A stretch of DNA of 40,134 nt. It comes from Candidatus Eisenbacteria bacterium. Lineage in GTDB: Bacteria > Orphanbacterota > Orphanbacteria > Orphanbacterales > Orphanbacteraceae. The stretch's first letter is position 1. Each line of letters opens with the position of its first letter. The notes beneath the pieces are model-generated. The model saw only the letters and a list, made by a program, of their open reading frames with translations, was not told where the DNA came from and ran no database searches. Below, one piece after another: positions 2,610 to 9,024 of the stretch. The stretch spans positions 1 through 40,134 of the forward strand of contig VGIW01000023.1 of the NCBI GenBank assembly GCA_016867715.1. The letters are read 5' to 3'. Position numbers and translations under genes: made by a program.

Positions 2610-3281
2610 ATGAAGTTGGTACAAACGATCCTAGCGGCGGCCGCATGCATCGCCTTGTTGGTCCCGGCGGCGAGCGCGGAGCAGTTTCTCCTCTGCGACT
2701 TTCTTGGGTACGACTACACGGCCCCGATGCCGCGCAACCTGAGCAACCCGAACGTCTACGTTGCCCTCGGGGACGTGGACAACATCCACCCGGGCGCGGT
2801 CGTGACCGACCCGCTGAACTACCAGTACACGTTCGTTCTGAACAGCGGAACGTGCACCGCAGCCGATACGGTCGCGGGTATCTACGGGCGGTACTACTAC
2901 AACGCCGGAGACGGAACGTTCTTCATCTACGAGGACCCGATTCTCGGCGGAACGAACCGGAACTACGGCACGAACCCGCCGAACGCCACGGCGCCGTCGA
3001 CTTTCTCCGACGGGACCTTGATTCTCGGCGCGGATTTTGTTAACTTGGTGATCATCGTCAACCTGAACAACTGGACCGCGTCTCTGAACGGCACGCTCGA
3101 CTTCTACTGCGGCGAGGGTTGGGGAAACCTGCCATGCTTCGACGGATGGACGTTCGCCGGCGAGACGATCGAGTCCGGGATTCCGGAAGGCTACATCTGG
3201 GCGGTCGACGGCGTGGTCTACGTCGAGGAAGTGTTGGTCGAGACCACGAACTGGAGCGATATCAAGAAGCTGTTCCGGTAA
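2610..3281 (+). CDS. secreted protein of unknown function, paralogue 1
   Basis: A 223-residue protein with a Sec signal peptide (KLVQTILAAAACIALLVPAA, cleavage likely after ASA). The mature part is acidic, rich in Asn, Tyr and Thr, and probably all-beta; no catalytic motif is visible. The ATG at 2610 is chosen over upstream in-frame starts because AGGAGGAAG lies just before it and the signal peptide begins there. It is paralogous to the next gene: both have a YTF strand, an (F/Y)GTNPP block followed by TF.DG.L(I/V)L, and both end in W-x-x-[IV]-K-x-L-F-R (here NWSDIKKLFR). The shared tail at the exact C-terminus suggests a sorting, anchoring or processing signal, which is inference. No function is assigned. 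Confidence 0.85.
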   Translation: MKLVQTILAAAACIALLVPAASAEQFLLCDFLGYDYTAPMPRNLSNPNVYVALGDVDNIHPGAVVTDPLNYQYTFVLNSGTCTAADTVAGIYGRYYYNAGDGTFFIYEDPILGGTNRNYGTNPPNATAPSTFSDGTLILGADFVNLVIIVNLNNWTASLNGTLDFYCGEGWGNLPCFDGWTFAGETIESGIPEGYIWAVDGVVYVEEVLVETTNWSDIKKLFR

Positions 3282-3376
3282 GATGGCCGGCGCCGAGCGG
3301 AAGCAGCGTTCCCTCGAGACGAGTCGTCGATACGGGGGCCAAGAAGAGGATTCCGATTGAAATTGGGAGGTAAGCT

Positions 3377-4072
3377 ATGAAGGCTTTGCTAAGGCCGTTC
3401 TTGCTGGGAGCGGTTCTGGCCGTGTTCTTCGCCGGCGCTGCGTCCGCCGAGATTCCGGGGATCGTTTGGGATTGGGCTCCCGAGTGCTACGGGTGGGAGC
3501 CGGGATACGCGAACCACATGAGCCAAGCGGGCGCCGTTCTTACGATCGTCGGCAAGGTCGATCGCTTTTTCGATCCCTTCCTCGACCTTGACCCGGTGGC
3601 GACCGAATACACGTTCATCTTCCGCGATCTGGTCTCGCTCGGTTCGATCAATCTGGGCGGCATCATCATCACGAACTACGCCGGCGGGTACTTCGAGATG
3701 TACAAGGACCCGTCGAACAACGCCGACTTCGGCACGAACCCGCCGAGCGTCGTTTCGCCGGCGACGTTCGTAGACGGGGCGCTTGTTCTGAATGGGGAGC
3801 TCTCGAGCTTCTTCGTCCAGATGTTCCAGGGACCGGGCGGATGGTCCGGGACGTACACGGTCGACGTCGAGCTCACCGGTCCGGTCGGGGGCGAGATCTA
3901 CGACCGCACCGGTCCGTGCTCCGGAACGAGCGGCGGCGGCTGGTCGGATCAGGCCCCGACGATTCCACTCGGTTACACGGTGAAGGTGGACGGCCACATG
4001 AACATCGACGAGTGCCACGGAACCGGCACTGAGAACGCGACTTGGGGGTCCGTGAAGACTCTGTTCCGTTAG
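3377..4072 (+). CDS. secreted protein of unknown function, paralogue 2
   Basis: A 231-residue protein with a signal peptide (MKALLRPFLLGAVLAVFFAG, then AASAE). GGGAGG at 3364-3369 precedes the ATG. It lies 95 bases after paralogue 1 on the same strand, so the two may be cotranscribed, and a terminator follows. It shares with paralogue 1 the YTF segment, FGTNPP, the TFVDGALVL block and the terminal motif TWGSVKTLFR. The pair looks like a recent tandem duplication that has diverged in the middle. Role unknown; extracytoplasmic location is well supported by the signal peptide. Confidence 0.85.
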   Translation: MKALLRPFLLGAVLAVFFAGAASAEIPGIVWDWAPECYGWEPGYANHMSQAGAVLTIVGKVDRFFDPFLDLDPVATEYTFIFRDLVSLGSINLGGIIITNYAGGYFEMYKDPSNNADFGTNPPSVVSPATFVDGALVLNGELSSFFVQMFQGPGGWSGTYTVDVELTGPVGGEIYDRTGPCSGTSGGGWSDQAPTIPLGYTVKVDGHMNIDECHGTGTENATWGSVKTLFR

Positions 4073-4281: not shown

Positions 4282-4331
4282 GATTGCGGAAAGAGAACGC
4301 TCACCCGGCGGACGAATCCCGGAGCCGTGCC

Positions 4332-6200
4332 GTGTCGATTGTCTTGGAACATCTCTCGAAGGTCTTCGGAGGCCACGGGGTCGTCAGCAACGTCTCTATC
4401 GAGATCGCTGACGGCGAGCTCTTCGTCCTGCTCGGTCCGAGCGGAAGCGGGAAGAGCACCGTTCTTCGGATGATCGCCGGGCTTCTCGATGTGGACGAGG
4501 GGCGCGTACTCCTCAACGGGCGGGACGTCACCGGTCTTCCGCCGCAGAAGCGCGGTGTGGGGTTCGTCTTTCAGCATTACGCGCTCTTCCGCCACATGTC
4601 GGTCGCCGAGAATATCGAGTTTCCGCTCACGATCCGAAAAGTGAAGCCGGCCGAGAGGCGGCGCCGGCGCGACGAGCTGCTCGACGTGGTCGGGCTCGTC
4701 GGTTTCGAGGCGCGGATGCCGCACCAGCTCTCGGGCGGCCAGCAGCAGCGCGTTGCTCTCGCTCGAGCGCTCGCGCATCGGCCGGAGGTCCTCCTTCTCG
4801 ACGAGCCGTTCGGCGCTTTAGATGCGAAGATTCGAGCGGAGCTTCGCCGCTCGTTGCGCCGCATCCAGGGAGAGCTCGGCGTCACGACGATCTTCGTTAC
4901 CCACGATCAAGAGGAGGCGTTCGAGCTCGCCGACCGGACCGGGGTGATGAACTTCGGGCGCCTGCTCGAATTGGGGCCGCCGATGGAGCTGTATCTTCGT
5001 CCGCAGACCGAGTTCGTCGCCACCTTTCTCGGGCGCGCGAACCTGATGGTCGGCGAGTGCGCGTCCGACAGCGTGAGGCTCGGATCGGTCCGGTTCCCTC
5101 TCGACAACCAGATCACCACGACCGGCGGAGAGCGGCGCGTTCAGGTTCTCTTTCGTCCGGAAGACGTCGCGGTGCGCGATTCTCCCAATGTCCTCGCGGT
5201 TCCTCTTCTGGGGAAAGCCGTCGTCGAGGAGGCGGGATCGGTCGGCTCGCTGGAGAAGCTGCGGCTTCGTCTTCCGCCTCTTCCAGGTGTGCGGCCGATC
5301 TCCCCGCCGGTCCCCTTCGGCGTCGATTCGATTCTGGTCGATGCGACCCGTTCGCAGGATCAGGCGAGGCGTTACCCGATGGAGCCGGGGGACGAGGTCT
5401 GGGTGGGGGTCCGGCGCATCCACGCGCTTCTGCATCCGGGTCTCAGCTTTCTCCTCGTCGCGGGCGGCGGTGCGGGGGGCGAAGCGGCCGTGAATCTCGG
5501 CGGCGAGATCGCGCGGCTCGCGCACGCGCGCGTGACGGTTCTCGGGCTGGGCTCGAAGGGGAGCGGGATCGACGAGCGTCTCGATCGGGTGCGCGAGCGG
5601 ATGGGGAGCGGGCTCGCGGCTCTCGAGATGCGGCATTCTTCGGCCGGTCCGGCCGAGGCGGTCGAGCGGGAGGCGAACCGCCAGCTCTTCGATCTCGTCA
5701 TCGCGGGGCGTCCGCCGGAAGGGGCAGTCGAGGCCGCGGAGGCTGCTCTCGGGCGGGGCGAGCATCATGTTCTCGTCGTTCCGGAGGGAAGCTCGATTCC
5801 GAAGAGCGTGCTCATCTGCGTGGCGGTGGGAGAACCGGGGAAGGAGGATGTGCATTTCGCCGGGAGGCTCGTGCGACACGTCGGCGCGCGCGCGACGATC
5901 CTCACGGTTCTTCCGGAGCGCTCTCTCGATTCGGCGCGGGCTCAGGCGGAGCGTTTCCTCGCGGCGGCCGCGAGAAGCCTCTCGGTTCTCGGCGTGCAAG
6001 GCGAGACTCGAATCCGGAAGGGCCGCGTCCTCGAACAGATCCTCGCCGAGTTTCGCGAAGGGAAGCATGACATGCTCGTGCTCGGAGTTCCGCTCGCCCC
6101 TTCGGGCGCGCGGGCGTCCCTCGACGGCCACGCGGCCGAGGTGCTCAAGGAGGTTCGCGATCGGCCCGTTCTTCTCGTGCGGTCGCGCGGGTCCGAATGA
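4332..6200 (+). CDS. cysA: sulfate ABC transporter ATPase CysA fused to tandem UspA domains
   Basis: The ATP-hydrolysing subunit of a sulfate/thiosulfate importer, about 622 residues from the GTG at 4332 (GGAG seven bases upstream; an in-frame TTG at 4284 lacks such a site). Residues 1-240 form the nucleotide-binding domain: Walker A GPSGSGKS (35-42), Q-loop in VFQHYALF, signature LSGGQQQR, Walker B VLLLDEP and switch histidine in VTHDQ. A TOBE-like regulatory segment follows to about 380. The last 240 residues are not part of a normal CysA (about 350 residues): they form two universal-stress-protein-like repeats, each opening with a hydrophobic strand (FLLVAGGG; SVLICVAVG) and ending with DLVIAGRP or DMLVLGVP. 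First gene of the operon with sbp, cysT and cysW. Confidence 0.92.
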   Translation: MSIVLEHLSKVFGGHGVVSNVSIEIADGELFVLLGPSGSGKSTVLRMIAGLLDVDEGRVLLNGRDVTGLPPQKRGVGFVFQHYALFRHMSVAENIEFPLTIRKVKPAERRRRRDELLDVVGLVGFEARMPHQLSGGQQQRVALARALAHRPEVLLLDEPFGALDAKIRAELRRSLRRIQGELGVTTIFVTHDQEEAFELADRTGVMNFGRLLELGPPMELYLRPQTEFVATFLGRANLMVGECASDSVRLGSVRFPLDNQITTTGGERRVQVLFRPEDVAVRDSPNVLAVPLLGKAVVEEAGSVGSLEKLRLRLPPLPGVRPISPPVPFGVDSILVDATRSQDQARRYPMEPGDEVWVGVRRIHALLHPGLSFLLVAGGGAGGEAAVNLGGEIARLAHARVTVLGLGSKGSGIDERLDRVRERMGSGLAALEMRHSSAGPAEAVEREANRQLFDLVIAGRPPEGAVEAAEAALGRGEHHVLVVPEGSSIPKSVLICVAVGEPGKEDVHFAGRLVRHVGARATILTVLPERSLDSARAQAERFLAAAARSLSVLGVQGETRIRKGRVLEQILAEFREGKHDMLVLGVPLAPSGARASLDGHAAEVLKEVRDRPVLLVRSRGSE

Positions 6201-6284
6201 CCCGCGACCCGGCGGGGAACGCGCAAAGCGGGGAATCCCGCGCAATCCAATCGTCGGATGGAAGCCGACAGGAGGAATCGAAAG

Positions 6285-7298
6285 ATGAGAACCGGAAGCC
6301 GTCGATTCGCTCTTCTTGCCGCTCTCGCGGCGGGAGCGCTCTTCGCCGCTTCGGGCGCCGCGGAGATCACGCTCCTCAACGTCTCCTACGACCCGACTCG
6401 CGAGCTGTATCAGGAGCTGAACGCCTCCTTCGCGAAGGAGTGGGAAACGAAGACAGGAGAGAAGATCACCATCAACCAGTCGCACGGCGGCTCCAGCAAG
6501 CAGGCCCGCTCGGTGATCGACGGGCTCGAGGCGGACGTCGTCACGCTCGCCCTCGCATACGACGTCGATATGTTGGCCGAGAAAGGCCTGATTCCGAAGA
6601 ACTGGCAGAGCCGTCTCCCGCACAACAGCTGTCCCTATACATCGACCATGGTCTTTCTCGTGCGCAAGGGAAACCCGAAGAACATCAAGGATTGGGAGGA
6701 CCTCGCCCGCCCGGGCATCGAGGTCGTGACCCCGAACCCGAAGACATCCGGCGCGGCGCGCTGGAACTACCTCTCCGCGTGGGCGTCGGGACTCGATCGG
6801 AGCGGCGGCGACGAGGCGGCGGCGCGCGATCTCGTCACGAGGATCTATCGAAACGTCAAGGTTCTCGACACCGGCGCGCGCGCCTCTACCGTGACGTTCG
6901 TCGAGCGCATGATCGGCGATGTTCTCATCGCGTGGGAAAACGAGGCTCTTCTCGTCACCCGGAAGCTCAATCCCGGCGAGTTCGAGATCGTCGTCCCCTC
7001 GCTCAGCATCCTGGCGGAGCCGCCGGTGACGGTCGTGGATCGCGTGGCCGACAAGCGCGGGACAAGGAAGATCGCGGAAGCGTACTTGGAGTACCTGTAC
7101 ACGCCTTTCGGCCAGGAGCTTGCGGCGAAGCATTACTATCGCCCCCAAGCGGAGGCCGCGCGGGAGAAGCACGCGGCAGAGTTCCCCGAGGTGAAGCTCT
7201 TCACGATCGACGAGGTATTCGGCGGGTGGGCGAAGGCGACAGAGATCCATTTCTCGGACGGCGGCATGTTCGATCGGATCTTCGAGGCCGGCAAGTAG
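6285..7298 (+). CDS. sbp: periplasmic sulfate-binding protein
   Basis: A 337-residue binding protein that delivers sulfate to the CysTWA importer. It has a signal peptide (residues 1 to about 26) and is strikingly close to E. coli Sbp throughout: [72 protein letters not shown] and the C-terminal [11 protein letters not shown]. These blocks separate it from molybdate- or tungstate-binding relatives. The ATG at 6285 follows AGGAGG at 6270-6275; an in-frame ATG at 6258 would place extra charged residues before the signal peptide. It lies 84 bases after cysA and 10 before cysT. Confidence 0.95.
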
Positions 7299-7308
7299 GA
7301 GAGCGCGC

Positions 7309-8136
7309 GTGAGCGGACGTCGCGGTGTTCTTCCGGGGTTCGGGCTCGCCATGGGGTTCACCCTTTGGTACCTGGGCCTTCTTCTCCTCATCCCGCTCGG
7401 AGCGCTCGTCCTCAAGGCGGCCACGGTCGATCCGGAGAAGTTCGCCGCGACGATCACCTCCGGCCGCACGCTCGCAGCTTTCCGTCTCAGCTTCGGCGCG
7501 GCGCTCGTCGCCGCCTGCATCAACGGGGTGTTCGGTCTCTTGCTCGCGTGGGTTCTCGAGCGGTACGACTTCCCCTTCAAGCGGCTCGTGGACGGTCTCG
7601 TCGATCTTCCGTTCGCGCTTCCCACCGCGGTGGCGGGCATCGCGCTCACCACCCTCTACGCGGGGAACGGATGGGTCGGGCGCCATCTTGCCGTTCTCGG
7701 CGTTCAGGTGGCCTACACGCCGCTCGGCGTCGTCGCCGCGCTCACGTTCGTCGGGCTCCCGTTCGTCGTGAGAACCGTTCAGCCGGTTCTCCGCGATCTC
7801 CCGGCGGCGATCGAGGAAGCCTCGGCAAGCCTCGGCGCCGGGAGGCTGCAGACGTTCTTCCGGCTCATCTTTCCCGAGCTCCTTCCGGCCGCGGCGACCG
7901 GGTTCACGCTCGCGTTCGCCCGCGGGCTCGGAGAGTACGGGTCGGTGATCTTCATCTCGGGAAACATGCCGATGAAGACGGAGATCACCCCGCTTCTCAT
8001 CATGATCAAGCTCGAGGAGTACGACTACGCGGGGGCGACGGCGATCGCCCTCGTCTTTCTCGCGATCTCCTTCGCGATTCTTCTCGCGATCAACGCCCTT
8101 TCGCTCCGGAGCGCCCATCCGGTTCGAAGGGGATAG
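7309..8136 (+). CDS. cysT: sulfate ABC transporter permease CysT (CysU)
   Basis: An inner-membrane permease of 275 residues, the usual length, with about six hydrophobic segments beginning at residues 8-30. The cytoplasmic EAA loop that docks on the ATPase is EASASLGAGRLQTFFRL at about 167-183. The start is a GTG with AGGAGAG at 7297-7303, overlapping the stop region of sbp. It forms a heterodimeric channel with CysW, encoded 12 bases downstream. Confidence 0.93.
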   Translation: MSGRRGVLPGFGLAMGFTLWYLGLLLLIPLGALVLKAATVDPEKFAATITSGRTLAAFRLSFGAALVAACINGVFGLLLAWVLERYDFPFKRLVDGLVDLPFALPTAVAGIALTTLYAGNGWVGRHLAVLGVQVAYTPLGVVAALTFVGLPFVVRTVQPVLRDLPAAIEEASASLGAGRLQTFFRLIFPELLPAAATGFTLAFARGLGEYGSVIFISGNMPMKTEITPLLIMIKLEEYDYAGATAIALVFLAISFAILLAINALSLRSAHPVRRG

Positions 8137-8148
8137 AGGAACGGTGTC

Positions 8149-9024
8149 GTGAGGCTTCCGTTCGGCGGACCGAAGAGAGGCGAGAAGACCGGAAGGCCGC
8201 GCAGCCTGAACGAGCCGCCGCTCGTTCGCGGGCTGCTCACGGCCGCGGCGCTCATCTTCATTCTCCTGTTTCTGCTCCTCCCGCTCGGCATCGTGTTTAC
8301 GAAGGCGTTTGGGGAAGGATGGAGCATGTACTCGCGCTCGGTCTTCGAGCCGTACGCGCTCCGGGCGATCCGGCTCACGGCTCTGACCACTCTGATCGTC
8401 GTTCCGCTGAACCTTCTCTTCGGAATCGCGGCGGCTTGGGCGATCTCGAAGTTCGACTTCCGCGGCAAGAACCTCCTGGTGACGGCGATCGACCTTCCGT
8501 TCAGCATCTCTCCGGTGATCTCGGGCATGCTGTTCATTCTTCTCTTCGGCGCGCAGGGGTTCTTCGGTCCGTGGCTTCTCGAACGCGGGATCAAGATCGT
8601 GTTCGCGCTCCCCAGCATCGTTCTCGCCACCCTCTTCGTGACCTCGCCGCTCGTCGCCCGCGAGCTGATCCCGCTCATGCGATCCCAGGGAAGCGAGGAG
8701 GAGGAGATGGCGGTCACCCTCGGCGCGAGCGGTCTTCAGACGTTTCTCAAGGTCAGCATTCCGAAGATGAAGTGGGGGCTCTTCTACGGCGTCATTCTGT
8801 GCAGTGCCCGTTCGGTCGGGGAGTTCGGGGCCGTTTCCGTCGTTTCGGGGCACATCCGCGGTCTCACGACGACCGTCCCCCTGCATGTCGAGATGCTGTA
8901 CAATGAGTATCAGTTCACGGCCGCCTTCGCGGTCGCTTCTCTGCTCACGATGCTCGCCCTCGTGACATTGGTCTTGAAGGGCTTGGTCGAGTGGCGCGCA
9001 TCCTTGAGAGATGAAGGAAGATAG
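8149..9024 (+). CDS. cysW: sulfate ABC transporter permease CysW
   Basis: The second channel subunit, 291 residues, with a hydrophilic N-terminal stretch of about 25 residues followed by six membrane segments. The EAA loop is [20 protein letters not shown]. The motifs [20 protein letters not shown] and [20 protein letters not shown] are typical of CysW. The GTG start has a weak GAGGAA site upstream. It completes the sulfate importer; the next gene, a sensor kinase, begins 52 bases further on and may be cotranscribed. Confidence 0.93.

Follow-up and report, generated by a model that had tools for sequence, protein, structure and literature searches.

A short C-terminal tail on exported proteins of Candidatus Eisenbacteria and related bacteria is a candidate sorting or anchoring signal

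INTRODUCTION

Work on C-terminal sorting tags has more than once uncovered a new sorting enzyme, as with exosortase, rhombosortase, and myxosortase. The PEP-CTERM, GlyGly-CTERM, MYXO-CTERM, and LPXTG signals each combine a motif with a membrane helix and a basic cluster (PMC1569441, PMC3237569, PMC11980579). Proteins of the type IX secretion system (T9SS) carry longer signals, among them the type-A C-terminal domain (CTD; TIGR04183/Por_Secre_tail), a beta-sandwich of 70 to 100 residues with a PNPF start and a GxY motif. The type-B CTD (TIGR04131) constitutes a second class, served by a shuttle protein of its own (PMC12618676), and Prevotella intermedia has "short" T9SS CTDs of ~40 to 55 residues that retain three strands along with motifs B, D, and E and that match T9SS profiles (PMC11969387).

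Here we describe a tail, W-x-x-[IV]-K-x-L-F-R, that ends two proteins encoded in the window, a 40,134-nucleotide stretch of DNA from a Candidatus Eisenbacteria bacterium (contig VGIW01000023.1, assembly GCA_016867715.1), and many other proteins besides. Like the type-A CTD, the tail is C-terminal, is carried by Sec-exported proteins in dozens per genome, is found on the same passenger families at the same junction, and has Leu at −3 and a basic last residue. Like the PEP-CTERM, GlyGly-CTERM, MYXO-CTERM, and LPXTG signals, it is a short C-terminal homology on unrelated signal-peptide proteins, many per genome, and it has the "choice-of-anchor" kind of carrier in common with signals of the PEP-CTERM type. 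As with the short CTDs of P. intermedia, it would be a reduced C-terminal signal present alongside long ones in one organism.

RESULTS

The preliminary description reported two signal-peptide proteins with a shared terminal tail; both ORFs are present, with typical predicted signal peptides and with the tails directly at the stop codons (Table 1). Protein 1 ends in ...TTNWSDIKKLFR (NWSDIKKLFR) and protein 2 in ...NATWGSVKTLFR (TWGSVKTLFR). The ATG at 2610 gives protein 1 the N terminus MKLVQTILAAAACIALLVPAASA/EQ, and a second open ATG lies upstream at 2577. The two proteins had been called otherwise diverged; they are instead paralogues from end to end (26% identity; E value, 2e-15), and the pair by itself is therefore no proof about the tail. 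Searches with both proteins gave no match in Pfam and only weak matches, far under the cut-off, in NCBIfam. An orthologous tagged pair in MAG DeMMO4_6 (L068) adjoins the same ABC transporter gene, that of the ATPase, as in the window. There, an ABC-type import cluster (positions 4284 to 9024, plus strand) comprises genes for an ATPase, whose ORF extends well past the ABC domain, an extracellular solute-binding protein, and two permeases. An intact-looking DDE transposase gene (PF01609; E value, 7e-18) lies immediately upstream of the tagged pair, at 676 to 2304 on the minus strand.

Table 1. Features of the two tagged genes (window positions)
Feature	Position	Strand	Basis
Tagged exported protein 1 (P0001)	2610..3281	+	ORF, translation, signal peptide rule, orthologue L068
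Protein 1, predicted signal peptide	2610..2678	+	Inferred from sequence and a crude rule
Protein 1, tag linker and N-cap part, VLVETTN	3231..3251	+	Carrier alignment consensus, [TV]-x-[TV]-E-x-[TSA]-[ST] in the family
Protein 1, nine-residue C-terminal tag WSDIKKLFR	3252..3278	+	Stop codon immediately next
Tagged exported protein 2 (P0002), paralogue of protein 1	3377..4072	+	ORF and comparison
Protein 2, predicted signal peptide, MKALLRPFLLGAVLAVFFAGAASA/EI	3377..3448	+	Sequence and crude rule
Protein 2, tag linker and N-cap part, TGTENAT	4022..4042	+	Carrier alignment
Protein 2, nine-residue C-terminal tag WGSVKTLFR	4043..4069	+	Stop codon immediately next

A DNA pattern search for W-x-x-[IVL]-K-x-L-[FY]-R followed by a stop codon found 34 sites in the 3.5-Mb genome to which the window belongs (G000) and none with the reversed pattern, which clearly disposes of the possibility, raised in the preliminary description, that no other exported protein bears the tail. 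When the stop codon was not required, the motif occurred at 39 sites, 34 of them exactly C-terminal; four of the remaining five lay 1 to 4 residues from the C terminus (endings LFRKVL, LFRRVFR, LFRDLF, and LFRS, of which LFRS belongs to a lipoprotein-like protein), and only one site was internal to an ORF. Strict-pattern counts miss variants of the tail (MFR, IFR, MYR, MWR, and LWQ), and a relaxed pattern gave 39 sites in this genome and 22 to 74 in six other genomes of the phylum, with controls of 0. Each of the seven phylum genomes examined holds 17 to 55 copies of the tail; a chance origin was rejected, the control being 0 in all seven, although the hits in DnaJ (L143) and at L035 and L100 are probably chance matches. 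The tail is thus almost certainly a real tag on exported proteins. Two tandem arrays were observed: at G003:C8:333806-336003, five tagged genes spaced ~550 bases apart, where small tagged proteins have expanded locally, and at L165:1886-4618 (G000 C13), three paralogous genes for exported proteins that carry the three longer extended tags, all in the same hydrophobic register.

Signal peptides were predicted by a crude, rule-based method in 25 of 27 carriers of the window's own genome and in 117 of 126 carriers elsewhere (142 of the 153 carriers with a closed 5′ end) compared with 145 of 461 background ORFs. Trimmed of these peptides and of the tail, 146 carriers fell into 51 unrelated clusters, several of which are gene families in their own right. 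Pfam and NCBIfam matches comprised beta-helix (13), PPC (4), CHRD (3), LTD (2), cupredoxin, and C-type lectin domains, together with the NCBI "choice-of-anchor" domains W, X, E, and F; these are kinds typical of secreted or surface proteins. "Choice-of-anchor" is the NCBI name for domains found with varying C-terminal anchors, and their occurrence here thus supports a sorting role. The tail is the sole feature common to the beta-helix, cupredoxin, LTD, and FN3 carriers, and no model in Pfam or NCBIfam covers it.

Comparison of 146 to 170 carriers gave the consensus [TV]-x-[TV]-E-x-[TSA]-[ST]-W-[GS]-x-[VI]-K-x-L-[FY]-R-stop, in which conservation at W, K, R, L, F, and G is partly by construction, since the search pattern fixed W, K, R, and largely L and F and the database scan fixed G too. 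At positions free of the search patterns, E occupies −13 in 106 of 170 tails and S or T occupies −10 in 145; with N and D included, 155 of the 170 have a residue at −10 that suits a helix cap. In a helical-wheel projection, one face comprises W, V/I, L, and F, with K and R on its flanks and the variable positions opposite, and the natural extensions (LFRRVFR, LFRKVL, and LFRDLF) prolong this hydrophobic face. The hydrophobic moment peaks at 100 to 110 degrees (0.61 to 0.65) against a strand value of 0.55, and because this excess is slight, it supports a helix without proving one. In the AlphaFold model of the FN3 family described below, W122 to L128 form a terminal helix after a linker, at low confidence (block pLDDT, 59); the tail is likewise a terminal helix in the model of a window protein, which is so poor (pLDDT, 44.6) that we claim no fold from it. 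A stretch resembling a membrane helix was present in the last 60 residues of only 1 of 170 carriers. The models and the residue pattern suggest that the tail probably consists of a flexible linker, a Ser/Thr cap, and a nine-residue basic amphipathic helix (W-G-x-[VI]-K-x-L-F-R).

In contrast to the type-A CTD, the tail has about nine conserved residues plus a linker, has no PNPF start, and is predicted to form a helix rather than strands. Of 170 tails, 6 had a GxY motif near the C terminus; in the same genomes, the motif was present in 62 of 64 CTD ends. Membership in the type-A family was rejected on this ground. Por_Secre_tail was absent among the Pfam families matched by 122 carriers and among the listed NCBIfam families, and no CTD finished in the tag; taken together, these observations indicate that the tag replaces the CTD and is not a part of it. 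The shared basic residue is a weak criterion, common to many tails: K at −5 and R at −1 were required by our pattern, and most CTDs have K or R at −1. The tail is also much shorter than the shortest T9SS signals described (about 40 to 55 residues; PMC11969387) and, unlike those of P. intermedia, has neither motifs B, D, and E nor three strands nor a match to a T9SS profile. Type-B CTDs are 100 to 235 residues long and often have a PorP/SprF gene alongside, whereas the tagged genes have no recurrent neighbor. Unlike the PEP-CTERM, GlyGly-CTERM, MYXO-CTERM, and LPXTG signals, the tag lacks a membrane helix and a cleavage motif, and no dedicated enzyme was found for it; known CTERM signals were rejected, with no tail model matching, and the missing membrane segment makes a co-occurring exosortase, rhombosortase, or sortase unlikely. 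The BAM beta-signal calls for a barrel strand with an aromatic end; the tail ends in Arg, and the Pfam-matched carriers (beta-helices, PPC, cupredoxin, CHRD, and similar) include no barrel family. The preliminary description was therefore right to set the tail apart from LPXTG, PEP-CTERM, and classic T9SS domains. No paper naming it was found among open-licence papers.

One passenger bears either ending. Among distinct homologues of a beta-helix family (L010) with a readable C terminus, followed across the phylum, 12 end in the tag, 16 end in a type-A CTD, and none has both. The junction is identical in both groups: after ...SPC...GxxGAxGxGC... comes a linker, short in the tagged proteins, and then either the tag (e.g., ...TAVEHTSWGAVKGMWR) or the CTD; a few homologues (L204 and L232) stop at the junction with neither.

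The T9SS translocon SprA (TIGR04189) was present in all seven phylum genomes, each of which also holds 100 to 148 type-A CTDs, and in 0 of 14 control genomes. At a cut-off E value of <1e-30, SprA was found in 30 of 31 genomes with at least three tags, the exception being a bin named Reyranella, compared with 6 of 33 random genomes with no tag or a chance match (Fisher P value, 3e-11); it was also found in 18 of 21 genomes with one or two tags. Since the phyla share T9SS by descent, this association is confounded by phylogeny; it is consistent with a functional link to T9SS and does not prove one. T9SS also occurs without the tag, in G007, G009, G012, G015, G036, and most Bacteroidota. The preliminary description proposed testing for co-occurrence with a candidate processing enzyme, and none was found: comparison of gene neighborhoods revealed neither a recurrent gene around the multicopy tagged genes nor a conserved neighbor of the single-copy FN3 gene. 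The former is what would be expected of scattered substrates of a central machine.

The window's genome appears to group with Candidatus Eisenbacteria MAGs (OFTM309 and Dive96_bin2.117) and with MAGs labeled "Gemmatimonadetes" (DeMMO4_6 and SS_bin_27). Among the matches listed in a GTDB scan, Eisenbacteria, Krumholzibacteria, and related MAGs have 3 to 53 copies per genome; genomes reached through loci were picked for carrying the tag, and random genomes have 0 or 1. Ignavibacteria, Chlorobi, Calditrichota, and Zixibacteria have one copy, on a protein of ~130 residues made up of a signal peptide and an FN3 domain (L063:1552-1944, L123, L145, L099, L147, and others). This protein is apparently undescribed so far; its last residues, RTWGSIKALFR, are its most conserved stretch, a fold search returned an ordinary FN3-like fold, and no informative relative emerged when PDB sequences were searched with the family. 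About two dozen of 297 Bacteroidota genomes have one WGSIKALFR-like copy, and none has several. Of the earlier suggestion of a "lineage-specific export tag," then, the export tag is supported and the restriction to one lineage is not.

DISCUSSION

We propose, with a probability of roughly 0.6, that the tail serves Sec-exported proteins as a compact C-terminal signal for sorting or anchoring, plausibly linked to T9SS. Its presence on many unrelated signal-peptide proteins, its strict C-terminal position, and its exchange with the CTD on one passenger give it the look of a C-terminal sorting signal and support the export-tag reading. On sequence evidence, that it sorts or anchors its carriers is quite probable, and that T9SS itself reads it is possible, at somewhat less than even odds. 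Tagged proteins would first be exported to the periplasm by Sec; there, the machinery for export across or attachment to the outer membrane could offer all tail helices a single docking receptor, most plausibly a shuttle or anchor protein associated with T9SS, and the proteins would thereby reach, or remain at, a common envelope site without a domain of ~70 to 100 residues. A bolder and more doubtful version is that the nine-residue capped helix represents a second class of C-terminal signal for T9SS secretion or attachment, with its own receptor, doing the job of the CTD. The tag is strict and frequent, is present across several uncultured phyla, and lacks annotation in Pfam and NCBIfam; it groups dozens of "hypothetical" proteins per genome into a single class of exported proteins. 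That it alternates with the T9SS domain on shared passengers opens the question of the smallest signal that T9SS or a partner pathway can read.

The main rival is retention or anchoring independent of T9SS, in which the helix would hold the protein in the envelope by binding a periplasmic receptor, peptidoglycan, or the outer membrane at its inner leaflet; tag versus T9SS domain would then decide whether a protein stays inside or is sent out. A basic amphipathic helix with a compact hydrophobic face and no T9SS motif would suit this role, and most T9SS-positive Bacteroidota lack the tag. The passenger swap fits both readings, since tag and CTD could denote opposite destinations as well as equivalent ones. 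We consider this rival unlikely, given that a plain membrane-binding helix needs no near-invariant order of W, K, L, F, and R, the strictness of which indicates a specific receptor, and that the carriers are of kinds typical of surface-exposed proteins.

Much less probable is a docking peptide that gathers exported proteins on one scaffold (an envelope layer, matrix, or vesicle) in the manner of encapsulation peptides or dockerins. Encapsulation peptides consist of a linker and a short amphipathic helix, which the tail would resemble by analogy, and 34 scattered genes per genome fit a many-to-one relation. Against this, nearly all carriers have signal peptides, which excludes cytosolic compartments, no scaffold candidate was found, and the single copy in Ignavibacteria and Chlorobi would have nothing with which to coassemble. 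Descent from one gene family, suggested by the paralogy of the window pair and by the families among the clusters, is refuted by the 51 unrelated clusters and by beta-helix, cupredoxin, LTD, and FN3 carriers otherwise without similarity, and it retains a negligible probability. The same is true of a DNA-level repeat or mobile element read by chance as a tail: the copies are short, many, and scattered genome-wide, but they use different synonymous codons (four for Arg and three for Leu, and GTG or ATC), have flanking DNA that is on average 29 to 31% identical, lie invariably in frame at the stop, and recur in Bacteroidota as the same peptide with different codons.

If the tag is such a second class of signal for T9SS, it may go back a long way in the Fibrobacteres-Chlorobi-Bacteroidetes group: Ignavibacteria and Chlorobi would have retained it on one FN3 protein, and phyla of the Eisenbacteria/Krumholzibacteria type would have expanded it to dozens of proteins. 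Stygiobacter electus (record 09-Me) carries the single-copy form and may offer a simpler organism in which to study the tag. The Reyranella sp. bin without SprA (G053), labeled alphaproteobacterial, has two adjacent tagged beta-helix genes (L064; JAGNNA010000121.1); two of its three tag copies thus lie on one contig, which is probably misbinned.
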